From Salinispora vitiensis (lineage in GTDB: Bacteria; Actinomycetota; Actinomycetes; Mycobacteriales; Micromonosporaceae), in contig NZ_KB900388.1 of NCBI RefSeq assembly GCF_000378825.1, positions 3,374,426 to 3,438,425 on the forward strand: a stretch of 64,000 nt of DNA, given 5' to 3'. The translations under genes and the position numbers were made by a program. Shown piece after piece: positions 27,586-61,585 of the stretch (the first letter of the stretch is position 1; every line of letters starts with the position of its first letter). Below the pieces are notes generated by a model. It made no database searches. It saw only the letters and a program-made list of their open reading frames with translations, and was not told where the DNA came from.

Positions 27586-27896
27586 GTCAGCCCGCGATGG
27601 AAATGGACCCGCAGGCCCTGCGCGAGCACGCCCGGGCGATCGACCAGTGGGCCGACAAGCTTGATCAAGCGACCTCAGCCGCCGGCCAGATCGCCACACA
27701 CCACGAGGTGTACGGGCTTTTTGCCGGACCGTACATTGTTCCGCTGATGGACCTGGTTCAGGGCGACGCGATAGACGAGTTGCGGAGCACCACCGACGCC
27801 ATCATGCAGCTGTCAGATGCCGTGCGCTCGGTCGCTTACAACACCGAGGTCACCGACGGCCAGGCAGCGCATTCCTTTTGGGAGGCCGGAGCATGA
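27582..27896 (+). CDS. EspC-like type VII secretion-associated protein
   Basis: A 104-aa helical protein with a long N-terminal helix (MDPQALREHARAIDQWADKL), a central GLFAGPYIVPLMDLVQ segment and a second long helix (IDELRSTTDAIMQLSDAV). This is the helical-hairpin layout of the small EspC/WXG100-like family exported with ESX systems. Between the helices, no classic WXG is present. It ends GQAAHSFWEAGA. It is coupled to both neighbours by 4-bp overlaps (ATGA). No ESX core component (EccC, EccD) is in the window. Confidence 0.75.
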   Translation: MSQPAMEMDPQALREHARAIDQWADKLDQATSAAGQIATHHEVYGLFAGPYIVPLMDLVQGDAIDELRSTTDAIMQLSDAVRSVAYNTEVTDGQAAHSFWEAGA

Positions 27897-28906
27897 CCAA
27901 CGGGGACTTCCTCCTCGCAGCTGAGGAGCAAACCAATACATTCGAGGGCGCCGGCATCTTCGAATCTTTTCAGGGCATGATGGAGGCCAATAACCAATGG
28001 GCGTTAAATGGAAACACTGCAGCTGCCGCGCTCGGGGCCCTCGGCGCAGTCATGGACCCACTACAATCGATCTTCTCAGCCGGCGTGGGCTGGCTCATGG
28101 AGCACGTCAGCTTCCTGCGTGAACCACTCGATGCGCTCATGGGAGACCCGAAAGCTATCGACAGCCACGCGGCGAGCTGGAGGAATATTCAAGCTCACAT
28201 TTACCAGGCCACCGACGAGTTCGCCCACGAGGTCAACAAGAGCACCGCAGCATGGGCAGCCGCATCCGCGGACGCATACCGCAACCTCGCCCGTGAGCAC
28301 GCAGAAAGCACCCGGGCCTTGGGTCAGATTGCCGATAACCTCAGCGTCCTCACCACCAGCATCGGCGCCACCGTCGGGGTGGTCCGTAACACCGTCCGCG
28401 ACATCGTCGCCGATGTCATTGGCGCCTGCATCTCCAAAGCCCTGCAAGCAGCCACGGTGGTACTCATCCCGAAAGTCGTCACCGAGGTCGCCATCCTGGT
28501 CAGCAAGACCATCGCCAGAATCTTCAACGTGCTCGAGGGACTGCTGGCCCGGCTGCAGGAGCTCGGCAAAGCCGCCAACCTTCTAGTCTCCTGCCTGGAG
28601 ATGGTCGGACAGGTCAATCGCAAGGTGACACTCGAAGTAAACACCCGCACTGAAGTGGCAGGAACGGGCGACATTAGCTTCAGCGCCTTTAAGGACGCCT
28701 ATAAGCAACTGCCCGGCCAAGGCCAAGATACAGCGTATGGGACGCCGTCCGAACTCGCTTCCCCAAGCGCCAAACTATACAATCAGCAAGGAAATATCGA
28801 CTCAACCGCACTTTCTGCCAGTTCCAACGCCTTACAGAACGCCGGCTCGGTCGGAGCCACTCTCACCGAAGACGACGAATACCGGCCGGTCGAAATTAAA
28901 CCCTGA
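27893..28906 (+). CDS. WXG100/PPE-like large T7SS substrate candidate
   Basis: A 337-aa protein. A helical N-terminal domain has LMGDPKAIDSHAASWRNIQ and STAAWAAASADAYRNLA (W121-A-A in the WXG turn position), the arrangement of long WXG/PPE-like ESX substrates. A hydrophobic stretch (about 160-215) follows, then a polar, low-complexity C-terminus (about 265-337) ending DDEYRPVEIKP. No enzymatic toxin domain is recognisable at the C-terminus. ATG 27893 overlaps the EspC-like stop and has GGAGG upstream. The two membrane proteins downstream may be its partners or immunity proteins (inference). Confidence 0.7.
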   Translation: MTNGDFLLAAEEQTNTFEGAGIFESFQGMMEANNQWALNGNTAAAALGALGAVMDPLQSIFSAGVGWLMEHVSFLREPLDALMGDPKAIDSHAASWRNIQAHIYQATDEFAHEVNKSTAAWAAASADAYRNLAREHAESTRALGQIADNLSVLTTSIGATVGVVRNTVRDIVADVIGACISKALQAATVVLIPKVVTEVAILVSKTIARIFNVLEGLLARLQELGKAANLLVSCLEMVGQVNRKVTLEVNTRTEVAGTGDISFSAFKDAYKQLPGQGQDTAYGTPSELASPSAKLYNQQGNIDSTALSASSNALQNAGSVGATLTEDDEYRPVEIKP

Positions 28907-28921
28907 CAGAAAGAACCAGCC

Positions 28922-29707
28922 TTGGACTCCTATCAGCAACGGCTCGCCAAACGCAAGGCCGAATCCGAAGCGCTGCGGGCCAAGCGGGATAAAGAGCTCT
29001 CCGGACGCCAGGTTGAGCGCACCACACGGGAACCTACTGCCATCCGACAGCAACCGACTTCCACCGGCAGCGCGCCGATCCGGAAGATCATTTACGCCAT
29101 CGGCCTCTCTTTGCTCGCAGTTGCCCTCACGCTTACCGGCGCAACCCTGGACAGGATCGCCGGCAGGGACTCTAGCGACCCCTACCGGACCGGCACCGGA
29201 CACGTCACCAAGTGCACGCAACAGGGCCCGCTGACGTGGTATCAGGGCTTCGGCTACTGGGAGCAATGCACCCTTGCCGTCGATTGGGGCGATGGATTCC
29301 CCGACCAAGTCCAAATCGATGCCACGCTCACCAGCGCCGACATCGGCACGGACGTTCCCATCGGAGAACACAAGTACAAAGGGGCGCTAAGTTACGTTGT
29401 TGTAGGCGCACCACACCGGCCGTGGCTGGATGCATCCGGCAAGTCTATGTTCATGCTCGGCTATCTTCCGCTTATAGCGACGCCAATACTCATTGCCTTT
29501 TATTGGCAGCCCATTCTCAGTTGGTACTGGTTCGGCATGCAGCGCAGATACCCCGGCGAACCAACCCCGAAGCCAACGGGCTGGGTGTGGTTCCGGAGAA
29601 TCGCACTGCTGGCATTGACGGCCTGGCTCGTCTTTTATGTCGGCACCGGACTCCTCAGGATCCTCCGGCATCTCGCCGATTTCCTCACCACGCTCGGGCT
29701 GATGTAG
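28922..29707 (+). CDS. Membrane protein, paralogue 1 of a tandem pair
   Basis: A 261-aa protein. A charged N-terminus (MDSYQQRLAKRKAESEALR, probable short coiled coil) precedes a helix (about 56-76) and an extracytoplasmic domain (about 80-170) with two Cys (HVTKCTQQGP; GYWEQCTLAVDW) and LTSADIGTDVPIGEH. Two C-terminal helices (about 178-200, 226-248) flank the cytoplasmic motif YWFGMQRRYPGEPTPKPTGW. The start is TTG, as in the paralogue, whose upstream sequence is nearly identical. Family not recognised; position after the T7SS-like substrate suggests a functional link. Confidence 0.72.
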   Translation: MDSYQQRLAKRKAESEALRAKRDKELSGRQVERTTREPTAIRQQPTSTGSAPIRKIIYAIGLSLLAVALTLTGATLDRIAGRDSSDPYRTGTGHVTKCTQQGPLTWYQGFGYWEQCTLAVDWGDGFPDQVQIDATLTSADIGTDVPIGEHKYKGALSYVVVGAPHRPWLDASGKSMFMLGYLPLIATPILIAFYWQPILSWYWFGMQRRYPGEPTPKPTGWVWFRRIALLALTAWLVFYVGTGLLRILRHLADFLTTLGLM

Positions 29708-29830: not shown

Positions 29831-30619
29831 TTGGACTCCTACAAGCAGCGGCTAGCCAAACGCAGAGCCGAATCCGAAGCGCGGCGGGACAAGTGGAGTG
29901 AAGAGTTCGCCGGACCCCAGGCTGAGCGCACCACACCGAAACCTGCCGGCATCCGGAAGAAACTTCCTGCCACCCGCGGGAAGCGCGGTCGGATTGTCAT
30001 GTACGTCATCGGTGTTTACCTGCTCGCCGGCGCCGTACTGCTTACCGCCCTGACCCTGTCAAGGCTTGGCGGCGAGGAGTTCAGCGACGATCATCGTACT
30101 GGTACCGCACACGTCACCCAATGCACGGAGCAGGGCCCCGTGACGTCTCGGGGCTTCGGCTACTGGGAACGATGCACCGTGAAAGTCGACTGGGACAACG
30201 GCCTCCACGACACTTTGAGCCTAGAAGCCGTGCTTACCAGCGCCGACATCGGCACGGACATACGCATCAGCGAGAGGAACGTAAGCACCCGCACGAAAAG
30301 CGGGTTCAAGCGGAACGACAAGACGTATGCTGTCGAAGACGCACCAACCCGGCCCTGGTTAGCCCGAGCCGGCTTCGTCCTTAGCTTGATCGCCATCATC
30401 CCGTTCATTCTGCTGATGTTGGTCATCGTCTTCACTCTGAAGTCCACGATGAAATGGTATTGGTTCGGCCCACAGCAGCAAAAGTCCGGCGAGCCGGTCC
30501 GGAAGGTAACGGGCTGGGTGTGGTTACGACGAATCGCACTGCTGGCGTTGGCGGCCTGGCTCGCCTTTCGGCTAGTCACCTGGTTTGAACCGTTGTTATC
30601 TATCCTGACATTCCCATAA
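29831..30619 (+). CDS. Membrane protein, paralogue 2 of a tandem pair
   Basis: A 262-aa paralogue of the preceding protein, sharing the start (MDSYKQRLAKRRAESEARR), the first membrane helix, the ectodomain cysteines (HVTQCTEQGP; GYWERCTVKVDW) with LTSADIGTDIRISE, and the C-terminal motif YWFGPQQQKSGEPVRKVTGW then VWLRRIALLALAAWL. Divergence is greatest in the middle of the ectodomain (a KRNDKTYAVEDAP insertion region). The start is TTG at 29831. Both copies have lower GC than the chromosomal backbone and look recently acquired. Function unknown. Confidence 0.72.
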   Translation: MDSYKQRLAKRRAESEARRDKWSEEFAGPQAERTTPKPAGIRKKLPATRGKRGRIVMYVIGVYLLAGAVLLTALTLSRLGGEEFSDDHRTGTAHVTQCTEQGPVTSRGFGYWERCTVKVDWDNGLHDTLSLEAVLTSADIGTDIRISERNVSTRTKSGFKRNDKTYAVEDAPTRPWLARAGFVLSLIAIIPFILLMLVIVFTLKSTMKWYWFGPQQQKSGEPVRKVTGWVWLRRIALLALAAWLAFRLVTWFEPLLSILTFP

Positions 30620-44915: not shown

Positions 44916-45680
44916 GTGACAGCCGAACGAACGCAAAAAGACGCCGGAATGGTCGGAATGGTGCTAGCGGCTGGGGCGGGACGCCGTCTACGCCCGCACA
45001 CCGACACGCTGCCGAAGGCGCTGGTACCGGTCGACGGCGCGACAACCATCCTCGACATTGCGCTACGTAATCTGGCCGAGGTCGGACTCACCGAGATCGT
45101 CGTCGTGGTCGGCTACGCCGCCGACGCGGTTCGGGAACGTCAGGCGGACCTGGAGCAGAAGTACGGCGTCACGCTCACCCTGGTACCCAACGACCGGGCC
45201 GAGGAGTGGAACAACGCGTACTCGCTCTGGCTGGCCCGCAGCTGGTTCGCCCGCGGGGTTCTGTTGGTCAACGGAGACACCGTCCATCCGGTCAGCGTGG
45301 AGAAGACCCTGCTCGCCGAGCGCGGGCCGGGGATCCTGCTGGCGATCGACACGATCAAGACGCTGGCCGAGGAGGAGATGAAGACCACCTTCGACGCCGA
45401 CGGCCAGCTCACCCGGATCACCAAGCTGATGGACCCGGACGAGGCCCGCGGGGAGTACATCGGTGCGACGCTGATCGAGCCACACGTCGCCGAGGCGCTC
45501 GCCGACGCGCTGGAGGCGACCTGGCGACACGACCCGAACCGCTACTACGAGGACGGCTACCAAGAGTTCGCCGACCGAGGTGGCGAGGTACGCGGGGCGC
45601 CGATCGGCGACGTCGACTGGGTCGAGGTCGACAACCACGACGACCTGGCACGGGCTCGGGAGATCGCGTGCCGCTACTAG
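44916..45680 (+). CDS. CTP:phospho-alcohol cytidylyltransferase (LicC-like)
   Basis: A 254-aa nucleotidyltransferase. The NTP-binding signature VLAAGAGRRLRPHTDTLPKAL is near residues 15-35. NNAYSLWLAR, the metal-binding region around VNGDTV, and a C-terminal DWVEVDNHDDLARA follow; these resemble phosphocholine-type cytidylyltransferases more than glucose-1-phosphate enzymes. With the two following genes it could make a CDP-activated glycerol (inference). GTG start 44916; the stop lies 13 bp inside the next gene. Confidence 0.8.
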   Translation: MTAERTQKDAGMVGMVLAAGAGRRLRPHTDTLPKALVPVDGATTILDIALRNLAEVGLTEIVVVVGYAADAVRERQADLEQKYGVTLTLVPNDRAEEWNNAYSLWLARSWFARGVLLVNGDTVHPVSVEKTLLAERGPGILLAIDTIKTLAEEEMKTTFDADGQLTRITKLMDPDEARGEYIGATLIEPHVAEALADALEATWRHDPNRYYEDGYQEFADRGGEVRGAPIGDVDWVEVDNHDDLARAREIACRY

Positions 45681-46735
45681 CCCGTACCGTCGCCACTCCG
45701 CTGGCCATCGAGGTCCGCCGGGGGGCGGTCGCCAACCTCGGCGGGCTCCTCGCCGACCGGCGGATCTCCGCCGGCGGCGACGTGGCCGTGGTGGTCGGAC
45801 CGGGACAGGGCGAGAAGATCGCCGAGCTGTGCCGGCCGACGCTGGGCTCAGCCGACGTCTTCACCGTCACCGGCGGCAGTGTCGACGCCGCCAACGAGTT
45901 GGGCGACCGAATCCGCCGCCGGCACTACGACGCGGTGGTCGGGATCGGCGGCGGCCGGACGATCGACACCGCGAAGTACGCCGCCACCCGCTACGGCATC
46001 CCGATGGTCACGGTCGCCACCAGCCTCGCCAACGACGGCATCGCCTCCCCGGTGGCGTCGCTGACCCACGACGGCGGCAAAGGCTCGTACGGGGTCCACA
46101 TCCCGATCGCCGTCCTGGTCGACCTCGACTTCGTGGAAAACGGCCCGGACCGGCAGACCCAGGCCGGGATCGGTGACGCGGTGAGCAACCTCAACGCCTG
46201 CGCCGACTGGGAGCTCGCCCACGAGCTGCGCGGCGAGCCGATCGACGGCCTCGCCGTGACGCTGGCCCGGACCGGCGCCGAGGCGCTGCTGAACCACCCC
46301 GGCAAATTCACCGACGACGCCTTCCTCACCACGCTGGCGGAGGCGTTGATCCTCGGCGGCATCGCTATGTCGATCTCCGGTTCGAGCCGGCCGGCCAGCG
46401 GCGGCGACCACGAGATCTCACACGCCATCGACCACCTCTGGCCCGGCACCGGCGCCCACGGCGAGCAGGCCGGGCTCGGGGCCCTCTTCTGCACCTGGCT
46501 GCACGGCGACCGGGACCGGTTCGGCCAGCTCGCCCGCTGCCTGCACCGGCATGGCCTGGCTACCCGCCCCGCCGAACTTGGTCTCACCGACGAGCAGTTC
46601 GTCGAGGCGGTGCACTTCGCGCCCCGGACCCGGCCGGACCGATACACGATCCTCGAACACCTCGCCCTCTCCCCCGACGAGCTCCGGTCTCGGTTGGGAG
46701 ACTGCCTGGACGCCCTCGGTGAACACCTTGCCTGA
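45668..46735 (+). CDS. Glycerol-1-phosphate dehydrogenase family (EgsA/AraM-like)
   Basis: A 355-aa iron/zinc-type dehydrogenase of the sn-glycerol-1-phosphate dehydrogenase family. GGGRTID (94-100), VTVATSLANDGIASPVASL and the metal ligands D170 (AGIGDAVSN), H248 (SGGDHEISH) and H264 (TGAHGEQ) match the archaeal EgsA / Bacillus AraM pattern, not glycerol dehydrogenases. Such enzymes reduce dihydroxyacetone phosphate to the G1P enantiomer used in archaeal lipids. GTG 45668 has GGGAG upstream and overlaps the cytidylyltransferase by 13 bp. Confidence 0.85.
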   Translation: MPLLARTVATPLAIEVRRGAVANLGGLLADRRISAGGDVAVVVGPGQGEKIAELCRPTLGSADVFTVTGGSVDAANELGDRIRRRHYDAVVGIGGGRTIDTAKYAATRYGIPMVTVATSLANDGIASPVASLTHDGGKGSYGVHIPIAVLVDLDFVENGPDRQTQAGIGDAVSNLNACADWELAHELRGEPIDGLAVTLARTGAEALLNHPGKFTDDAFLTTLAEALILGGIAMSISGSSRPASGGDHEISHAIDHLWPGTGAHGEQAGLGALFCTWLHGDRDRFGQLARCLHRHGLATRPAELGLTDEQFVEAVHFAPRTRPDRYTILEHLALSPDELRSRLGDCLDALGEHLA

Positions 46736-47435
46736 ACTGTCCCGGCCAACCGCGGCCGACTTCTACCGGACCAACCGGGGCGGCGGGCTGTTCAGCGAGA
46801 CGATCAGCCAGTGGATCGGGGCCGCCCTCGCCAGCGGCGCACACCGGCTCGGGCTGCGGCCCACCACGCTGAGCATCACCAACCTGCTCCTCGGCCTAAT
46901 CACCTCGGTGATCGTGGCGACGCTGGCCGAGCCGGTCGCCACGGGCCGCGTATCGGCCTGGCTGGTCGGGCTGGTGGCGCTGGTCGGCTGGCAGGTGGCG
47001 TACGCGCTGGACTGCGCGGACGGGCAACTCGCCCGGGTCACCGGCCAGGGCAGCCCGGCCGGGGCGCGGGTGGATGTGCTCAGCGACGTGGCGGCCCAGA
47101 TCGCCCTGGTCGCCGCACTCGGTGCGACCGCGGTCGCGCAGTCACCGTCGATCCCCGCCTGGCTGATCGCGGCCTTCGCCGGCACCTGGATGGTGAACCT
47201 GGTCACCTCGGTGATGCAGGCCGGGCCGAACGCGACCAGCATGGTCACCTCGACCTCGCTGCTGGTGCGGCTGGTGAAGCTGATCCGCGACTACGGCGCG
47301 GTGATCTTCGTTGCCGCGCTGGTGCTGCTCTTCGCGCCCGGCCTGACCAGCTGGGTGATCGTCGCCTTCACCGCGATCAACGGCGGCTTCCTGCTCGCCA
47401 GCATCGCCTTCGCCGCTCGGGCCTCACTGCGCTGA
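46719..47435 (+). CDS. CDP-alcohol phosphotransferase family membrane enzyme
   Basis: A 238-aa integral membrane protein. The signature is exact: D98-x2-D101-G102-x2-A105-R106-x8-G115-x3-D119-x3-D123, with about six helices. These enzymes transfer a phospho-alcohol from a CDP-alcohol to a second alcohol. It overlaps the G1P-dehydrogenase gene by 17 bp, so all three should be one transcript. Start GTG 46719 is a best guess (a TTG lies a few codons downstream). The acceptor is unknown. Confidence 0.85.
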   Translation: MNTLPELSRPTAADFYRTNRGGGLFSETISQWIGAALASGAHRLGLRPTTLSITNLLLGLITSVIVATLAEPVATGRVSAWLVGLVALVGWQVAYALDCADGQLARVTGQGSPAGARVDVLSDVAAQIALVAALGATAVAQSPSIPAWLIAAFAGTWMVNLVTSVMQAGPNATSMVTSTSLLVRLVKLIRDYGAVIFVAALVLLFAPGLTSWVIVAFTAINGGFLLASIAFAARASLR

Positions 47436-48620
47436 CCGGCGGCCCGACTCGGCCGTCCGGGCGGTGTCGGCGTAGATGTCGAGCAGTCGCCGGGTGACCA
47501 CGTCCGGGTGGAAGGTGCGCTCGTAGCGGGCCCGAGCAGCCGGTGCCCGGCTGGCGGCTTCGGCGGCTGCCGCCGGCAGCGCGGCGGCCAGCGCGGCCGG
47601 GTCCGGCGGCACCACCCAACCGGCCGGTTCCGGAGTGTCGGCACCGACCAGGAACGGGATACCGCCGAGGGCGGTGCCGAGCACCGGCCGACCGGCGGCC
47701 AGCGCCTCGATGATCACCGTCGGCAGCACGTCGTGCCAGGTGGAGGTGGCCAGCACCACCGCGCTCGCCGCCAAGGCGGCGTGCACCCCGTCCCGGCCCA
47801 GCGGACCGAGGAAGGTCACATCTGCCCGCTCGGCCGCCGCCGCCTCCACCAGGGGTCGCAGCTCACCGTCCCCGGCGACCCGGAGCGGGCCGAGCGCACC
47901 CTCCGGATGCCGACGCCAGGCATCCAGCAGCAGGTCCAGCCCCTTCTCCGGGCTGAGCCGGCCGAGGAAGAGGAAGCCGGTGCCCAGCGGCGCCGGGGCA
48001 CCCGGGTCGGGGATCGCGTTCGGCTTCACCACAATCCGTTGCTCCGGGATGCCGTAGTCCCGGAGGTGCTCCGCGATCGAGGTGGTCAGCGCGATGAACC
48101 GGTCCACCGAACGCCAGGTACCCCGATGCACGGCGAGCGTCGTCGCCATCAACGCGCTCTGCGCCCGCGACCCCCGGTAGCAGCGGTGCACGACCGCCGG
48201 TACGCCCAGCGCCCGCCCCCGGCAGTCCTGGCAGATCGCCCCGTCCCGGAAGTACAGCCCGGACGAGCAGACCTGCCGGTAGTTGTGCACCGTCTGCACC
48301 ACCGGCACGCCGTACTGGTGCGCGGTCCGCACCACCCAGGGCGAGAGCAGCGGGTACGGGTTGTGCAGGTGCAGCACGTCCGGTTGGTGCTCGGCGAGCA
48401 GGCGACCCAGCTCCCGCTGGGCTCGTGGGGCGTAGATCGGGGAGATCGGCAGCAGCGCCTTCGCGGGCCGGGACATCGACGCGATCTCGTCGGAGCTACG
48501 CAGGAACGGCAGCACCTCAACCCCGGCCGCGGTCAGCTGGGCGATCTCCGCGTCGACGATGGTGTTCTCGCCGGACGGCTGAGCCTCCCGGTACCGGTTG
48601 TGCGCCACCACGATTTTCAT
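47424..48620 (-). CDS. GT4-family glycosyltransferase
   Basis: A 398-aa GT-B glycosyltransferase. The N-terminal acceptor domain has PDVLHLHNPYPLLSP and VQTVHNYRQVC with CRGRALG cysteines. The donor domain has FLGRLSPEKGLDLLLDAW and the E-x7-E region PTVIIEALAAGRPVLGTALG. It is oriented against the three-gene G1P/CDP-alcohol operon and overlaps its end by 12 bp. It may decorate the product of that operon or act on a cell-wall glycan. Confidence 0.88.
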   Translation of the reverse strand: MKIVVAHNRYREAQPSGENTIVDAEIAQLTAAGVEVLPFLRSSDEIASMSRPAKALLPISPIYAPRAQRELGRLLAEHQPDVLHLHNPYPLLSPWVVRTAHQYGVPVVQTVHNYRQVCSSGLYFRDGAICQDCRGRALGVPAVVHRCYRGSRAQSALMATTLAVHRGTWRSVDRFIALTTSIAEHLRDYGIPEQRIVVKPNAIPDPGAPAPLGTGFLFLGRLSPEKGLDLLLDAWRRHPEGALGPLRVAGDGELRPLVEAAAAERADVTFLGPLGRDGVHAALAASAVVLATSTWHDVLPTVIIEALAAGRPVLGTALGGIPFLVGADTPEPAGWVVPPDPAALAAALPAAAAEAASRAPAARARYERTFHPDVVTRRLLDIYADTARTAESGRRSAQ

Positions 48621-49771: not shown

Positions 49772-51337
49772 ATGAATGAGGTGACGACAAGCCTCCAGCG
49801 CCCGGTAACCAACGGAGGCCAAAGCAGAACGGTGCCGCACGTCGACAGCTTCGAGATCCAGCCGCCGGCACCGCCGTCTCACAACGGCGTACCTCGGTCG
49901 GCCTGGGCCCGTAGCCATCGTCGGGTCTCCCGTTGGCACCGCCCCTACACCGCGGCCCTGGTGCTCCTGGACTTCGCCGCCGCCGCCTTCGCGAGCTTCA
50001 CCGCCATCCGCGCCTTCGACCAGGCACGGTCCGGGTTCTACAACGACGGCCCGACCTGGTTCTACACCGTGGCGTGCCTGTTGCTACCGCTCGGCTGGCT
50101 GGCGATCCTCTGGTTCAACGGGTCCTACGACCGGCGCTACCTGGGCCTCGGTCCGGATGAGTTCAAGCGGGTGCTCCGGGCCGGCGTGGCGGTCTGCGCG
50201 ACCGTCTCCTTCCTGGCGTTCGCCACCAAGACAGATCTGTCCCGATATTCGGTCGGCACCGCGCTACTCCTCGCCCTGCTGCTGATTCTGCTGGTCCGGA
50301 TCCTGGCCCGATTCGTGCTGCACGTGCTCCGGCGCAACGCTGGCCGGGCCGCGCACCGAATGGTCCTGGTCGGCACCCTGCCCGAGTGCCTGGAGGTCCA
50401 CCGCCAGGTCACGCGGAGCCCCGCCGCCGGCCTGGTGCCGGTCGCCATCCACCTCACCGACGGCTACGCGGCTGCCCGCGGCGTGGAGACCCCGGTCCCG
50501 GTCTACGCGGGGCGGGACCTCCTCACCCTGGTTCGTGAGGTCGGCGGCGACACGATCGCGGTCTGCGGGTCAGCCAGCGCCGAGCCCGGCGAGCTGCGCC
50601 GGATGGCCTGGCAGCTCGAAGGCTCCGGCGTCGACCTGGCGGTGGTGCCGCAGCTGACCGACATCGCCGGGCCCCGGGTGCACATCCGCCCGATCGAGGG
50701 CCTGCCGCTGCTGCACGTGGAGGAGCCGACCCTCTCCGGTCCGGCGCTGCTGGCGAAGAACATGCTCGACCGGGTGGCCGCCGGACTCGGCCTGTTGGTC
50801 CTGCTACCGGTCTTTCTCGCGATCGCGGTCGCGATCCGGATCTCCGACCCGGGCCCGGTCTTCTTCCGACAGCCCCGGGTGGGCCACGAGGGGCGGACCT
50901 TCCGGGTCTGGAAGTTCCGCACCATGTACGTGGACGCCGAGGAGCGGCTGGCCAGCCTCGTTGACCAGAACGAGACCGACGGCATGCTGTTCAAGATGAA
51001 GCGGGACCCGCGGGTCTTCCCGGTGGGCCGCTTCCTGCGCGCCTCGTCCCTGGACGAGCTGCCCCAGCTGATCAACGTGTTGAAGGGGGAGATGTCGTTG
51101 GTCGGGCCCCGTCCGCTGCCCGCCGACGACGGTGACTTCCTCGGCGACGTACGCCGCCGGCTGCTGGTCAAGCCGGGCATCACCGGCCTCTGGCAGGTCT
51201 CCGGCCGCTCCGACCTCTCCTGGGACGAGGCGGTCCGCCTCGACCTCTACTACGTCGACAACTGGTCGCTGGCGTACGACCTGAGCATCCTGTGGCGCAC
51301 GGTCGGAGTGGTGCTCGCCCGCAAGGGCGCGTACTAG
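49772..51337 (+). CDS. Polyprenyl glycosylphosphotransferase (exopolysaccharide)
   Basis: A 521-aa priming enzyme. Four N-terminal helices (about 50-175) are followed by a cytoplasmic middle domain, a further helix (about 335-355, AAGLGLLVLLPVFLAIAVA) and the catalytic bacterial-sugar-transferase domain (PVFFRQPRVGHEGRTFRVWK, ASSLDELPQLINVLKGEMSL, VGPRP, PGITGLWQVSGRSD). It transfers a sugar phosphate to undecaprenyl phosphate to start a polysaccharide. The ATG is preceded by GGGAGGAC. A strong hairpin follows. Confidence 0.92.
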   Translation: MNEVTTSLQRPVTNGGQSRTVPHVDSFEIQPPAPPSHNGVPRSAWARSHRRVSRWHRPYTAALVLLDFAAAAFASFTAIRAFDQARSGFYNDGPTWFYTVACLLLPLGWLAILWFNGSYDRRYLGLGPDEFKRVLRAGVAVCATVSFLAFATKTDLSRYSVGTALLLALLLILLVRILARFVLHVLRRNAGRAAHRMVLVGTLPECLEVHRQVTRSPAAGLVPVAIHLTDGYAAARGVETPVPVYAGRDLLTLVREVGGDTIAVCGSASAEPGELRRMAWQLEGSGVDLAVVPQLTDIAGPRVHIRPIEGLPLLHVEEPTLSGPALLAKNMLDRVAAGLGLLVLLPVFLAIAVAIRISDPGPVFFRQPRVGHEGRTFRVWKFRTMYVDAEERLASLVDQNETDGMLFKMKRDPRVFPVGRFLRASSLDELPQLINVLKGEMSLVGPRPLPADDGDFLGDVRRRLLVKPGITGLWQVSGRSDLSWDEAVRLDLYYVDNWSLAYDLSILWRTVGVVLARKGAY

Positions 51338-51366
51338 CCGGCACCACACCGCTCCACCACCCGCGC

Positions 51367-51405
51367 GGTGCCGGCCGGAGCCCCTTGGCACCTCCGGCCG
51401 GCACC
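51367..51405 (+). terminator. Strong terminator-like hairpin
   Basis: GGTGCCGGCCGGAG (51367-51380) pairs perfectly over 14 bp with CTCCGGCCGGCACC (51392-51405), 11-nt loop. It lies between the glycosylphosphotransferase and the LytS-like kinase gene, which starts 8 bp later, and may also occlude that gene's leader. Confidence 0.7.
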
Positions 51406-51412
51406 GGCCAGG

Positions 51413-52648
51413 ATGCACCCCGTGAGTGGCAGCCTCTCCGCCGTCTTCGGTGTCGTCGCACTGGCGACCGCGCTGACGGCGACCCTCGTCGCGGTGCTGC
51501 GCCCGCGCGGCCGCCGCACCATCGCCACCGCCGCCCAGCGGGCCACCTACGAGGTGCTGCACACCGCCGGCCTCGCCGCCGAGCCGCTCCGCGCCGGGCT
51601 GACCGCCACGAACGCCACCAAGGCCGTACGCCACCTCCGGGTCCTGGTCGGGGCGGCCGGGCTGGCGCTGACCGACACCGCGGCGTTGCTCGCCCTCGAC
51701 GGGCGCGGCGCACACCACCAGGCCCAGCTCGTCGCGGCGGCCCGCCGGGTCGTGGCGGCCGGCCGATCGACCGTGCTCGGGGAGGCGGAGCTGCCCTGCG
51801 ACCGGGTGGACTGCCCGGTCCGGGGTGCCGTGGTCGCACCGTTGACCGGCGCGGATCGGCGGATCGTCGGCGCGCTGTTGGCCATCGCGGACGGGGCACC
51901 CGCGCCCGGCCTGGTGCAGGCGACGCTGGAGACCGCGCACTGGGCCGGTAGCCAGCTCGCCCTCGCCGAGCTGGACTCCTCCCGAGAGCGGCTGGCCCGC
52001 GCCGAGGTTCGCGCGCTGCGGGCACAGATAAGCCCACACTTCATCTACAACGCGCTGACGGCGATCGGGTCCTTCGTCCGCACCGACCCGGACCGGGCCC
52101 GGGAGTTGATCCTCGAGTTCGCCGAGTTCACCCGCTACTCGTTCCGGGCGCACGGCGACTTCACCACCCTGGCCGAGGAGCTCCGGTCGATCAATCACTA
52201 CCTGACCATCGAACGGGCCCGGTTCGGCGAGCGGCTCCAGGTGCGGCTCCAGGTCGCCCCCGAGGTACTGCCGGTGACCCTGCCCTTCCTCTGCCTGCAA
52301 CCACTGGTCGAGAACGCGGTCCGGCACGGGTTGTCCGGCAAGCCCGGCACGGGCATGGTGAGCATCGAGGCCCGGGACGCGGGCACCGAGTGCCACATCA
52401 CGGTGGAGGACGACGGGGTGGGGATGGATCCAGCCACGCTGACCGCCGGCATCGCCGAACTGGCCGCCGCCGGGAGCGCCCCGACGGGGGCACCGGGCGG
52501 GCAGGTGGGCCTGTCCAACGTTGACGAACGACTTCGGGCGGTTTTCGGGGACGAGTTCGGCCTGGTGGTGGAGACCGGCCTCGGCTTGGGTACGCGGGTG
52601 AGCATGCGGGTGCCGAAGTTCCATCCCGGCGTACGGGCGGGGTCGTGA
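51413..52648 (+). CDS. LytS-type sensor histidine kinase
   Basis: A 411-aa kinase. One N-terminal helix (about 8-30, SAVFGVVALATALTATLVAVL) precedes a GAF-like sensor part (about 60-185, with CDRVDCPVRGAVVAPL cysteines). The His_kinase domain (H209 in ISPHFIYNAL) and an HATPase domain (LQPLVENAVRHGL; DDGVGM) follow. Overlaps its LytTR partner by 4 bp. Such LytS/LytTR pairs next to a cation/acetate symporter are common in actinomycetes and may control it. Confidence 0.87.
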   Translation: MHPVSGSLSAVFGVVALATALTATLVAVLRPRGRRTIATAAQRATYEVLHTAGLAAEPLRAGLTATNATKAVRHLRVLVGAAGLALTDTAALLALDGRGAHHQAQLVAAARRVVAAGRSTVLGEAELPCDRVDCPVRGAVVAPLTGADRRIVGALLAIADGAPAPGLVQATLETAHWAGSQLALAELDSSRERLARAEVRALRAQISPHFIYNALTAIGSFVRTDPDRARELILEFAEFTRYSFRAHGDFTTLAEELRSINHYLTIERARFGERLQVRLQVAPEVLPVTLPFLCLQPLVENAVRHGLSGKPGTGMVSIEARDAGTECHITVEDDGVGMDPATLTAGIAELAAAGSAPTGAPGGQVGLSNVDERLRAVFGDEFGLVVETGLGLGTRVSMRVPKFHPGVRAGS

Positions 52649-53397
52649 CCGGGTTCCTCCGGGTCCTGGCGGTTGACGACGAACCACCGGCCCTCGACGA
52701 GCTGGCGTACCACCTGCGGGGCGACCCCCGGGTCGCCCGGCTACACACCGCCGGTGACGCCACCGAGGCGTTACGGGTGCTCCGGGACGGCGATGTGGAC
52801 GTGGTCTTCCTGGACATCCGGATGCCGGGGCTGGACGGGATGGAGCTGGCCCGGGTACTCCGCCGCTTCGCCCGGCCGCCGGCCATCGTCTTCGTCACCG
52901 CCTACGACGACGGCGCGGTGGACGCGTTCGACCTCGGTGCTACGGACTACGTCCGCAAACCGGTCCGGGCGCAACGGTTGGCCGAGTCGCTGCGTCGGGT
53001 GGTCGGAGCGCGGCGGGTGACCGTGCAGCCGGCGGCGCCGGCGTGGGATGAGGACCCGACGATCCCGGTCGAGCTGGCCGGGACGACCCGGATGCTGCCC
53101 CGGTCGGCGGTGCGCTGGGTGGAGGCGCAGGGTGACTACGTGCGACTGCACACCATCGACGATTCCCACCTGGTCCGGGTCTCCTTGGCGACCCTCGCCG
53201 AGCGGTGGGCTGACGCCGGCTTCGTCCGGATCCACCGCTCCTATCTGGTCCAGTTACGGCTCATCGCCGAGCTGCGGCTGGTGAACTCCGGCTACGTGGT
53301 GGTGGTCGACGCGACCGAGTTGCCGGTCAGCCGGCGGCACACCCGCGAGCTGAAGGAGAAGCTGATCCGGGCGGCCAAGCAGGACTGGGCCCGCTGA
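52645..53397 (+). CDS. LytTR-family response regulator
   Basis: A 250-aa regulator with a receiver domain (DDEPPALDEL, phospho-acceptor D57 in VVFLDIRMPGLDG, Lys in YVRKPV) and a LytTR DNA-binding domain (about 145-245: AVRWVEAQGDYVRLHT, GFVRIHRSYLVQLRLI). GTG start overlapping the kinase gene stop (4 bp). Probable local target: the symporter operon, with the prepilin peptidase gene in between on the other strand. Confidence 0.9.
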   Translation: MTGFLRVLAVDDEPPALDELAYHLRGDPRVARLHTAGDATEALRVLRDGDVDVVFLDIRMPGLDGMELARVLRRFARPPAIVFVTAYDDGAVDAFDLGATDYVRKPVRAQRLAESLRRVVGARRVTVQPAAPAWDEDPTIPVELAGTTRMLPRSAVRWVEAQGDYVRLHTIDDSHLVRVSLATLAERWADAGFVRIHRSYLVQLRLIAELRLVNSGYVVVVDATELPVSRRHTRELKEKLIRAAKQDWAR

Positions 53398-60817: not shown

Positions 60818-61585
60818 ATGACAGCAGAGCAGCACCCCGCCCTCGCGCTGCGCAGTCTGGTGAAGCGCTTCGACGCGAAGATGGCGGTGGCGGGCGTTGA
60901 CCTGACCGTGCCGGCCGGCTCGTTCTACGGGCTCCTCGGGCCCAACGGCGCCGGCAAGACGACCACGTTGTCGATGGCCGTGGGGCTGCTCCGGCCGGAT
61001 GCCGGCGGCGCCTGGGTGCTCGGCCACGACGTCTGGGCCGACCCGGTACGGGCGAAGCAGCTCCTCGGCGTCATGCCCGACGGCGTACGCCTCTTCGACC
61101 GCCTCAGCGGCGCCGAGCTGCTCGCGTACCACGGCCTGCTGCGTGGCATGGACCCGGCGGTGGTCGACCAGCGCGCGGCGGAGCTGCTGGACGTGCTCGC
61201 GCTCGCCGACGCCGGGCGGACCCTGGTGGTGGACTACTCGGCCGGGATGAAAAAGAAGATCGGCCTGGCCTGCGCGCTGCTGCACGGGCCCCGGCTGCTG
61301 GTGCTGGACGAGCCGTTCGAGGCGGTCGACCCGGTGTCGGCGGCGCTGATCCGAGACATCCTCGCGCGGTACGTGACCGGTGGCGGCACGGTCGTCTTCT
61401 CCAGTCACGTGATGGAGGTCGTGGAGCGGCTCTGCTCGCACGTGGCGATCCTCGCCGACGGCGCCATCAAGCGGGTCGGCACCCTGGACGAGGTCCGCGG
61501 AGAGCAGACGCTGGAGCAGGTCTTCGTGACGGTCGTCGGCGGACGCACCGCCACCGGTGAGGAGCTGGCGTGGCTGTCGCGGTGA
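60818..61585 (+). CDS. ABC transporter ATPase
   Basis: A 255-aa ABC ATPase with Walker A GLLGPNGAGKTTTL (about 38-51), a signature motif in YSAGMKKKIGLACAL, Walker B LLVLDEPFEAVDP and the H-loop SSHVMEVVERL. TACGGT lies 8 bp upstream of the ATG with no Shine-Dalgarno site, so the mRNA may be leaderless. It overlaps the permease gene by 16 bp. A deleted copy of the whole cassette lies 3 kb upstream. Confidence 0.92.
   Translation: MTAEQHPALALRSLVKRFDAKMAVAGVDLTVPAGSFYGLLGPNGAGKTTTLSMAVGLLRPDAGGAWVLGHDVWADPVRAKQLLGVMPDGVRLFDRLSGAELLAYHGLLRGMDPAVVDQRAAELLDVLALADAGRTLVVDYSAGMKKKIGLACALLHGPRLLVLDEPFEAVDPVSAALIRDILARYVTGGGTVVFSSHVMEVVERLCSHVAILADGAIKRVGTLDEVRGEQTLEQVFVTVVGGRTATGEELAWLSR

Follow-up and report, generated by a model that had tools for sequence, protein, structure and literature searches.

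An operon with an archaeal-type dehydrogenase

What could an actinobacterium make with a homologue of sn-glycerol-1-phosphate (G1P) dehydrogenase that is encoded between a nucleotidyltransferase and a CDP-alcohol transferase? Textbooks present the G1P stereochemistry as a mark of archaea, and a sequence-only reading of the window, a stretch of 64,000 nucleotides from Salinispora vitiensis, had proposed that the three enzymes could make CDP-glycerol of the sn-1 configuration, taken as archaeal, and transfer it to an acceptor. Sn-1-glycerophosphate is not purely archaeal: according to a passage of PMC7086022, bacterial lipoteichoic acid and the phosphatidylglycerol headgroup contain it, by another route. 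Passages of PMC6431249 state that phylogeny found the G1P dehydrogenase (G1PDH) gene in actinobacteria and suggest archaea-like lipids as a possible product of those that carry the full set of three archaeal genes. In passages of a 2021 study (PMC8262930), it is argued that the great majority of bacteria lack free G1P and that CDP-1-glycerol likely does not occur in bacteria, so that a prediction of the latter is specific and testable. In the literature covered (titles, beginnings of abstracts and passages, with subscription journals mostly outside), no proposal of a CDP-1-glycerol pathway was found. We read the operon, with a probability of about 0.6, as supplying CDP-1-glycerol to cell-envelope synthesis, a teichoic-acid-like polymer being the most likely product.

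The three overlapping genes announced by the sequence-only reading were all present. The first, NT (44916..45680, + strand; PF00483, 46.9 bits), encodes a LicC/PntC/IPCT-type nucleotidyltransferase, a putative CTP:glycerol-1-phosphate cytidylyltransferase. It overlaps by 13 nt with the gene of the EgsA/AraM-type G1PDH homologue (45668..46735, + strand; 355 aa, GTG start; PF13685, 108.3 bits), which in turn shares 17 nt with CAP (46719..47435, + strand; 238 aa, GTG start; PF01066, 30.3 bits for a cut-off of 22), encoding a CDP-alcohol phosphotransferase and putative glycerol-1-phosphate transferase. Only the start of NT had to be corrected. In its alignment (A2), 11 of the 23 rows reached further upstream, all with a real methionine at the place of ATG 44949; the other 12 started at the codon aligned to it, and residues 1-9 of the NT model had a pLDDT below 50. 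The true start is probably ATG 44949 instead of 44916, giving a protein of 243 aa. As also described earlier, a GT4 glycosyltransferase gene (47424..48620, - strand; PF13692, 80.4 bits) faces the operon and overlaps CAP by 12 nt. Of 71 loci (L046-L116), 59 had a GT4 match downstream on the opposite strand, at a distance of no more than 4 kb in 54; the gene is a conserved convergent neighbour in relatives, any role in the pathway being hypothetical.

A strong G1PDH homologue was detected in 112 of 150 Micromonosporaceae genomes, and of the 94 loci examined, 88 had NT preceding G1PDH on the same strand at no more than 300 nt (gene boundaries in the comparison loci were drawn with a simple purpose-made gene caller). 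This conservation across the family places the operon far beyond chance. In addition, the operon was found in Streptomyces and in more distant actinobacterial lineages. The earlier description of such a modification as not usual in actinobacteria is therefore not supported: the operon is normal in Micromonosporaceae and also occurs outside them.

Family identity of the dehydrogenase

The metal ligands D170, H248 and H264 occupy the residues named by the sequence-only reading and did not vary among the 24 sequences aligned (A1); in a more distant locus outside this alignment (L132), Glu replaces Asp at the place of D170. Since these ligands are largely common to glycerol dehydrogenases too, they are insufficient, taken alone, to show a G1PDH. 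The GGGRTID and NDGIASP signatures were likewise present. When G1PDH-type motifs were searched as (N/H)DGxxS, S(R/x)PxSG and a C-terminal R(Y/F/W)TxL, the enzyme displayed NDGIASP, SRPASGGxH and RPDRYTIL, none of which was complete in the four glycerol dehydrogenases compared (27 rows). The first motif reads VDG in the AraM proteins of B. subtilis and Priestia and MDG in Rubrobacter, and is thus typical of G1PDHs without being strict.

In the phylogenetic tree, a branch with 100/100 support separated the dehydrogenase from HcxA and four glycerol dehydrogenases, one of which is named by similarity only. Among the 43 inner branches, 22 were well supported and 8 open, the operon clade being unplaced with respect to the archaeal G1PDHs. 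On a very long branch, E. coli AroB fell among the G1PDHs, a position taken as misplaced. Furthermore, when the predicted structure was aligned with 997 chains, the top six matches comprised 3ce9, which the tree places with the G1PDHs, and five G1PDH entries. Z scores ranged from 42.2 to 37.9 for 3ce9, the M. jannaschii and Pyrobaculum G1PDHs and B. subtilis AraM, all glycerol dehydrogenases ranking lower (35.0 at most). Tree, motifs and structure ranking ruled out a glycerol dehydrogenase, and the family call made earlier withstood both structure prediction and phylogeny: the enzyme groups with archaeal and bacterial G1PDHs. It is a G1PDH homologue on these three grounds and is predicted to produce sn-glycerol-1-phosphate.

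Against NF002022, the NCBIfam G1PDH model, the dehydrogenase scored 253.9 bits, versus 63.4 for the glycerol dehydrogenase model. The NF002022 equivalog cut-off (413 bits) was missed, and it was reached by 0 of 396 phylum genomes and 3 of 14 control genomes; the enzyme is therefore filed as a G1PDH homologue only, and not as that equivalog. This low score and the missing Asp ligand of L132 count against the reading proposed here. With the EgsA/AraM enzymes it has in common the fold, the metal ligands and the DGxxS, SRPxSG and R(Y/F/W)TxL-type motifs, but it belongs to a tree subgroup of its own, distinct from that of B. subtilis AraM, and its gene adjoins NT and CAP, whereas Priestia AraM lies in an arabinose operon.

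In B. subtilis, the G1P made by AraM enters heptaprenylglyceryl phosphate (passage of PMC5059525), and the Salinispora enzyme could in the same way feed a PcrB-like prenyltransferase for a Bacillus-type ether lipid. This route is highly improbable: PF01884 (PcrB/GGGPS) had no match in the Salinispora genome, when 7 of 14 control genomes matched, and the partners encoded in the operon are a nucleotidyltransferase and a CDP-alcohol transferase.

The nucleotidyltransferase and the CDP-alcohol transferase

NT carries the N-terminal LAAGxGxRLxPxT...PK motif and a nucleotidyltransferase fold. Its best PDB sequence match was LicC (1jyk), and the model (pLDDT 90.4) was most similar to PntC (6pd2; Z 27.7, rmsd 2.4, 236 aligned residues), a CTP enzyme that supplied the two best structural rows. 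IPCT and LicC came about 2.5-3 Z units lower, in a tie with UTP- and dTTP-sugar enzymes, which followed from about 2 Z units lower. Fold, sequence match and structural matches thus bear out the LicC-type family assigned previously. A phosphonate pathway, considered in view of PntC, was disfavoured, no recognised phosphonate gene being present among the eight window proteins scanned. NT has the LicC/PntC fold but, unlike the LicC, PntC and CpgD cytidylyltransferases, it is paired with a G1PDH; specificity for CTP and G1P is predicted from this fold and pairing.

A different substrate is rather improbable, although part of the data would accommodate it: a diverged relative of the G1PDHs would reduce another ketose phosphate, from which NT would make another CDP-alditol. 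The NF002022 score lies well below its cut-off, which no phylum genome reaches, and LicC-type enzymes vary in substrate. CpgD, a CTP enzyme, takes phosphoglycerate and gave no product from glycerol-1-phosphate, as a passage of PMC12275187 reports. On the opposite side, the dehydrogenase retains the G1PDH-type motifs and its closest solved structures are G1PDHs.

In CAP, the transferase signature, already described as perfect, is intact (D..DG..AR.{8}G...D...D, at residue 98). Its NCBIfam matches were all weak (25.5, 22.6 and 17.6 bits) and fell in the inositolphosphotransferase IPCT-DIPPS and the archaetidylinositol and phosphatidylinositol phosphate synthases; the Streptomyces CAP matched the same three models with 55.7, 47.9 and 42.5 bits, all under cut-off. 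The PDB sequence matches were choline- and choline/ethanolaminephosphotransferases, with an E value of 1.7e-7 for cholinephosphotransferase 1; the acceptor of such enzymes is a lipid. The likeness of CAP and its relatives to inositol-phosphate transferases counts against the polymer reading. As in the IPCT-DIPPS system for CDP-inositol of archaea and Thermotoga, a cytidylyltransferase is combined with a CDP-alcohol transferase; the operon differs in having separate genes, an additional G1PDH and an envelope context in relatives.

These matches bear on two alternatives. CAP might use CDP-1-glycerol to place glycerol-1-phosphate on inositol-1-phosphate or another small acceptor of this kind, yielding a glycerophosphoinositol-type solute or headgroup. 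The NCBIfam families point in this direction, and archaeal glycerophosphoinositol synthesis requires CDP-1-glycerol (passage of PMC8262930), but the lipid acceptor of the PDB matches argues against a soluble product, which we consider unlikely. The acceptor might also be diacylglycerol or a glycolipid, in a Kennedy-type route to phosphatidylglycerol of ordinary configuration or a phosphoglycolipid, as the resemblance to cholinephosphotransferase 1 suggests. Against this, the normal bacterial route to phosphatidylglycerol is PgsA. The phosphatidylglycerol headgroup is sn-1 (passage of PMC7086022), so that a Kennedy-type route would yield the normal stereoisomer; it is nevertheless a doubtful explanation, in part for the reasons of gene context given below.

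Gene context in other actinobacterial lineages

Among 29 loci surveyed in other lineages and in the family, a TagG-type gene lay within 10 kb of the NT-G1PDH pair in 11 (L118, L119, L121-L124, L138, L139, L130, L132 and L137). In one of these (L137) there is also a TagF, with 47% identity to Salinispora TagF over 732 aa. L125 has a TagF-type gene (PF04464, 313.8 bits) in divergent orientation to NT-G1PDH; in L127, the gene after G1PDH-CAP is of the TagA/WecG type (193.1 bits). In the Streptomyces-like L120, a second G1PDH is found about 6 kb from a TagF that is 47% identical over 741 aa to the Salinispora protein. This context of export and polymer synthesis (TagGH, TagF, TagA, GT2) would be needless for a solute, and a Kennedy-type lipid leaves the TagGH, TagF and TagA neighbours unexplained. 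The same gene families occur in the araM-tagGH syntenic region of Streptomyces, noted in PMC13118837 as linked to teichoic acid synthesis; the passage on this region proposes no pathway, CDP-1-glycerol or stereochemistry. Only weak matches to the Streptomyces GT2 were obtained in Salinispora, none of which was retained as its orthologue.

In Micromonosporaceae, Tag genes were absent from the six family loci of the survey, and no specific Tag gene was near the operon in L046, L050 and L074. In L048 the sole match is TagF-like, 90 aa long and 9 kb distant, and the window contains no specific Tag gene, but only a 28% ABC-ATPase match (60848-61495). For the family, the link to a polymer is thus carried over from the other lineages.

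Teichoic-acid-type genes in the Salinispora genome

At a locus separate from the operon and outside the window, the Salinispora genome encodes TagG, TagH, a DUF5941/CDP-alcohol transferase and TagF in a row. The TagF-type polymerase scored 382.9 bits with PF04464 and 172.3 bits with the NCBIfam TarF model (cut-off 550). A second TagH and TagG share 70% and 50% identity, respectively, with their counterparts in the G1PDH cluster of Streptomyces; next to them is a GT2 protein, one part of which resembles TagF less strongly.

TagD was not recognisable in this genome: both TIGR01518 matches are HldE-like heptose kinase/adenylyltransferases (321.7 and 251.3 bits; HldE cut-off 521), which disposed of a hidden TagD. 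Similarly, a duplicate IspD acting as TarI was rejected; besides one IspD, the second match lies inside a protein read as GlmU from its sequence. TagD above the TIGR01518 cut-off was found in 0 of 150 family genomes, versus 8 of 396 in the phylum. TagD-like matches of 60-89 bits occurred in 11 of the 150 genomes, of which seven carried G1PDH as well as TagF; in the phylum sample, 5 of the 11 Streptomyces-like genomes that have G1PDH gave matches of 59-66 bits. The MAG locus L115 combines NT-G1PDH with a near-cut-off TagD. These TagD-like matches count against the polymer reading.

With the line for a strong TagF set by us at 100 bits, 80 of the 150 genomes had both strong G1PDH and strong TagF, 6 TagF only, 32 G1PDH only and 32 neither, kinship being ignored; at the Pfam cut-off the counts, again ignoring kinship, were 97, 10, 15 and 28. 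These counts were read by hand from tables, and five genomes that had no G1PDH match and were missing by name from those tables were entered as negative. By genus (148 of the 150 genomes assigned), 21 had both, 3 TagF only, 7 G1PDH only and 13 neither (n=44; Fisher p 5e-4). The co-occurrence favours the polymer reading; against it, G1PDH is absent from 6 of the 86 genomes with a strong TagF and strong TagF is missing from 32 of the 112 with G1PDH, the latter count also speaking for a soluble product.

Proposed pathway

From the observed families, motifs, operon and context, we infer specificity for CTP and G1P, the stereochemistry of the product and its acceptor. Given its family, motifs and fold, G1PDH would reduce dihydroxyacetone phosphate (DHAP) to sn-glycerol-1-phosphate, which NT, by its fold and gene pairing, would convert with CTP into CDP-1-glycerol, the donor for CAP. 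In Salinispora, this nucleotide would probably also serve the TagF-type polymerase and the DUF5941-type transferase of the TagG-TagH locus. Judging by gene context, priming or capping of a lipid-linked chain would fall to CAP and the DUF5941 enzyme, its extension to TagF and its export to TagGH. The product would resemble a teichoic acid, with glycerol phosphate of the opposite handedness to that in Bacillus wall teichoic acid. The sequence-only reading is thus upheld in part: its enzyme families hold, its supposed rarity in actinobacteria is not supported, and the use of CDP-1-glycerol for a glycerophosphate polymer is favoured by the other-lineage gene context and by the presence of TagF in a genome where TagD is not recognisable.

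The logic resembles that of TarJ-TarI, in which a ketose phosphate is reduced and the product is activated with CTP to CDP-ribitol: a dehydrogenase and a cytidylyltransferase yield a CDP-alditol. The operon uses other enzyme families, however, and predicted DHAP in place of ribulose phosphate. The TagD-TagF pathway of Bacillus has in common a presumed CDP-glycerol donor, a TagF-type polymerase and TagGH-type exporters, but Salinispora has no recognisable TagD, would make its predicted donor, the opposite enantiomer, with a cytidylyltransferase from a different family, and encodes additional CDP-alcohol transferases.

A broader proposal, for which we see the chances as evenly balanced, is that many actinobacteria make CDP-1-glycerol with an archaeal-type G1PDH and build sn-glycerol-1-phosphate teichoic acids in the cytoplasm, a mirror-image wall pathway. 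The groups named in it are Micromonosporaceae, Streptomyces, Actinomadura, Nonomuraea and several more distant lineages. If it is true, both statements of PMC8262930, on free G1P and on CDP-1-glycerol, fail for a major bacterial group, and the physiological purpose of actinobacterial G1PDHs is explained. Moreover, GlpQ is an sn-3-specific phosphodiesterase (passage of PMC7086022), and the wall polymer would be expected to resist it.

The operon and its dehydrogenase

In the 5.1 Mb Salinispora genome that holds the window, three overlapping plus-strand genes were found where the sequence-only reading had placed them. They encode a nucleotidyltransferase (NT, 44916-45680), a homologue of glycerol-1-phosphate dehydrogenase (G1PDH, 45668-46735) and a CDP-alcohol phosphotransferase (CAP, 46719-47435), with overlaps of 13 nt between NT and G1PDH and of 17 nt between G1PDH and CAP. 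The GT4 glycosyltransferase said to face the operon is indeed convergent on the opposite strand. The NT start is probably the ATG at 44949, 33 nt downstream of the start first assigned, since this place is a real methionine in all 11 upstream-extending rows of alignment A2 and the start of the other 12 of its 23 rows, and since residues 1-9 of the NT model have a pLDDT below 50.

On sequence and predicted structure, the dehydrogenase is a G1PDH homologue, in agreement with the earlier family call; in its closest named relatives at the locus, all Salinispora species, it is 95-98% identical. The top NCBIfam model was glycerol-1-phosphate dehydrogenase (253.9 bits, below its cut-off of 413), and glycerol dehydrogenase reached 63.4 bits. 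The top matches of a PDB sequence search were 3ce9 and the G1PDHs 4rgq, 4rfl and 5fb3. Structure prediction and phylogeny against EgsA, AraM and glycerol dehydrogenases, both proposed earlier as checks, were carried out. The predicted structure (pLDDT 90.8) was closest to 3ce9 (Z 42.2, rmsd 2.5, 336 residues aligned), followed by 4rgq, the M. jannaschii G1PDH (Z 41.3, rmsd 2.1, 316 aligned), 5fb3 (Z 39.8, rmsd 2.3, 317 aligned) and 9h4x, the B. subtilis AraM (Z 37.9, rmsd 2.7, 327 aligned), whereas glycerol dehydrogenases ranked below these at Z 35.0 and lower. 3ce9 was deposited as a glycerol dehydrogenase, yet it stands among G1PDHs in the tree and carries most G1PDH motifs. In this tree of 46 rows, a branch supported at 100/100 splits off E. 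coli HcxA and four glycerol dehydrogenases, one of them named by similarity only. The window dehydrogenase forms its own subgroup, separate from the B. subtilis AraM type. The position of AroB among G1PDHs was treated as an artefact (end branch 7.7).

The D/H/H metal ligands were invariant in 24 relatives and are largely common to glycerol dehydrogenases too; in the distant dehydrogenase of locus L132, Glu replaces the Asp ligand. Three further motifs, NDGIASP, SRPASGGxH and RPDRYTIL, mark G1PDHs in the comparison set, and B. subtilis AraM has VDG in the first of them.

The flanking enzymes

The top PDB sequence match of NT was LicC. Its model (pLDDT 90.4) was nearest to PntC, a phosphonate cytidylyltransferase (6pd2, Z 27.7, rmsd 2.4, 236 aligned; then 6pd1, Z 26.5). 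UTP- and dTTP-sugar enzymes, IPCT and LicC came next, with Z 25.6-24.8. This ranking favours CTP as the substrate, but does not prove it. The CDP-alcohol transferase signature claimed for CAP is complete, and the protein is weakly similar to cholinephosphotransferase 1 and to inositol-phosphate transferases.

Distribution and gene context

The sequence-only reading had called the predicted modification not usual in actinobacteria, which the distribution of the operon contradicts. A G1PDH match was present in 125 of 150 same-family genomes (E 0.001), a strong one (>350 bits) in 112, and the G1PDH model matched 95 of 396 phylum genomes at 1e-20, weaker rows included. Among 95 loci compared (L046-L140), all but L117 contain G1PDH. 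In 88 of these 94, NT is found on the same strand no more than 300 nt upstream (exceptions L120, L127, L131, L133, L134 and L136), although the loci are not independent, 71 coming from a single similarity search dominated by Micromonosporaceae. CAP follows G1PDH in 72/94 loci with the Salinispora query and in 14 more with a Streptomyces query.

The Streptomyces fungicidicus cluster reads DUF5941/CDP-AP, NT, G1PDH, CAP, GT2, ABC permease and ABC ATPase, and hopanoid genes come next. A gene of the TagG type (teichoic acid exporter) lies within 10 kb of the NT-G1PDH pair in 11 of 29 loci compared: L138 and L139 are from Streptomyces; L118, L119 and L121-L124 share 67-96% identity with S. fungicidicus in their cluster genes; and L130, L132 and L137 belong to other families. 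Within 12 kb, L137 holds NT, G1PDH, CAP, DUF5941, GT2, the polymerase gene tagF (product 47% identical to Salinispora TagF over 732 aa) and a partial tagG at the stretch end. In L125, a TagF-type gene (PF04464, 313.8 bits) is divergent from NT-G1PDH; in L127, G1PDH and CAP are directly followed by a TagA/WecG-type gene (193.1 bits), with an NT-like gene 3 kb off. A second G1PDH of the Streptomyces-like genome G482 (L120, 1-10006) adjoins neither NT nor CAP; about 6 kb away is a TagF that shares 47% identity with the Salinispora protein over 741 aa, with a second TagF-like stretch beside it.

No specific Tag gene was found in six Micromonosporaceae loci (L047, L081, L088, L100, L113 and L135, the last with a 27% ABC-ATPase match only), nor in the window, L046, L050 and L074, which gave just 28% ABC-ATPase matches. 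L048 shows a TagF-like match of 90 aa at a distance of 9 kb.

In a metagenome-assembled genome labelled Gammaproteobacteria, L115 (3300-11100) combines LicD, methyltransferases, NT-G1PDH and a TagD at 165.1 bits (cut-off 165.4); lateral transfer or mis-binning of the pair is possible, because its G1PDH is nested among Micromonosporaceae in the tree. L134 (8279-9923) has a diverged G1PDH gene, without NT, in overlap with a gene for a CDP-alcohol transferase, and on the same contig another G1PDH (L133) lies behind a different NTP_transf_3 gene, near a WcaJ-type transferase.

Wall genes of Salinispora and a candidate supplier for TagF

At 4.05 Mb of the Salinispora genome, an ABC-2 permease, an ABC ATPase, a DUF5941-type CDP-alcohol transferase and a GT2-TagF fusion follow in a row. 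The permease is 29% identical to Streptomyces TagG; among NCBIfam models a galactan exporter ranks first for it, far under cut-off. At 0.28 Mb, TagH (70%) and TagG (50%) resemble those of the Streptomyces G1PDH cluster and adjoin a GT2 protein with a weaker TagF-like part.

TagD, the cytidylyltransferase for glycerol 3-phosphate, was over the TIGR01518 cut-off in none of the 150 family genomes, although the same model picked up 8 of 396 phylum genomes. The genome has one IspD, a second match falling within a protein that reads as GlmU. Since there is no recognised TagD and a single IspD, NT appears to be the best candidate supplier for TagF when weighed against the TagD-like and IspD matches. 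Salinispora's own two TagD-like matches were rejected as HldE-like; these two heptose kinase/adenylyltransferases (L181, 603-2285; L182, 735-2246) suggest heptose-containing glycans. Weaker TagD-like matches (60-89 bits) occur in 11/150 family genomes, 7 of which carry G1PDH as well as TagF, and matches of 59-66 bits in 5 of 11 Streptomyces-like G1PDH genomes of the phylum sample. Some relatives may thus have both routes.

Co-occurrence and the proposed pathway

With kinship accounted for to genus level at most, G1PDH and TagF co-occur. For strong G1PDH and TagF at 100 bits or more, a line of our own choice, 80 of 150 genomes had both, 6 TagF only, 32 G1PDH only and 32 neither (Fisher p 2e-9). 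With TagF at the Pfam cut-off (107 genomes), the counts were 97, 10, 15 and 28 (p 1e-11), and at genus level with the stricter line 21, 3, 7 and 13 (p 5e-4). The G1PDH-only genomes establish that the operon does not require a strong TagF homologue. This leaves room for other explanations, namely a glycerophosphoinositol-type solute, a Kennedy-type lipid or phosphoglycolipid, or another ketose phosphate as substrate. A PcrB-type ether lipid is unlikely: a search of the Salinispora genome for PcrB found none.

Our preferred reading is that the operon supplies CDP-1-glycerol for a teichoic-acid-like polymer. From the families, motifs, operon structure and context observed, we infer each catalytic step and the acceptor. 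G1PDH would convert DHAP to sn-glycerol-1-phosphate, from which NT would form CDP-1-glycerol. CAP would use the latter to glycerophosphorylate a putative acceptor; TagF and the DUF5941 enzyme would probably also transfer from it, and TagGH would export the product. The suggestion of the sequence-only reading, that sn-1 CDP-glycerol is made and passed to a polymer or lipid, is thus partly supported and made more specific, its observation having been confirmed.

The available text of PMC8262930 considers CDP-1-glycerol likely absent in bacteria, and reports that the TagF-like polymerase Cps7D can make polymer from it, so that the chemistry is feasible. G1PDH is recorded in actinobacteria in the portions consulted of PMC6431249 and PMC5059525, in neither with this function. 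In the accessible part of PMC13118837, Streptomyces araM adjoins tagG, tagH, a CDP-alcohol transferase and a nucleotidyltransferase, and teichoic acid biosynthesis is mentioned; in that of PMC13400652, G1P in bacterial lipids is discussed, with AraM mentioned mainly for Bacillus. In the literature surveyed, as far as its text was available, no prior proposal of a G1PDH-NT pathway to CDP-1-glycerol was found. The operon would be of the same kind as known envelope systems with CDP-alditol supply, but its stereochemical prediction is unusual and easily testable: excerpts of PMC7086022, the source of a GlpQ test, give wall teichoic acid of Bacillus as sn-3 and lipoteichoic acid as sn-1.

Other features of the window

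At 49772-53397, a WcaJ-type sugar transferase is followed by a His_kinase protein (PF06580) and a LytTR response regulator. The WcaJ-type gene occurs in 56 of 71 related loci and the convergent GT4 in 59, some loci ending early. Between 24000 and 30600, three 2-kb windows have a G+C of 0.60-0.67, against 0.70-0.75 in most others. PADLOC gave no match among four proteins scanned from this stretch, which encodes a DUF7010-like protein, a WXG100-like protein under the Pfam cut-off (27878-28906) and a tandem pair of DUF6346 proteins (28922-29707 and 29831-30619).
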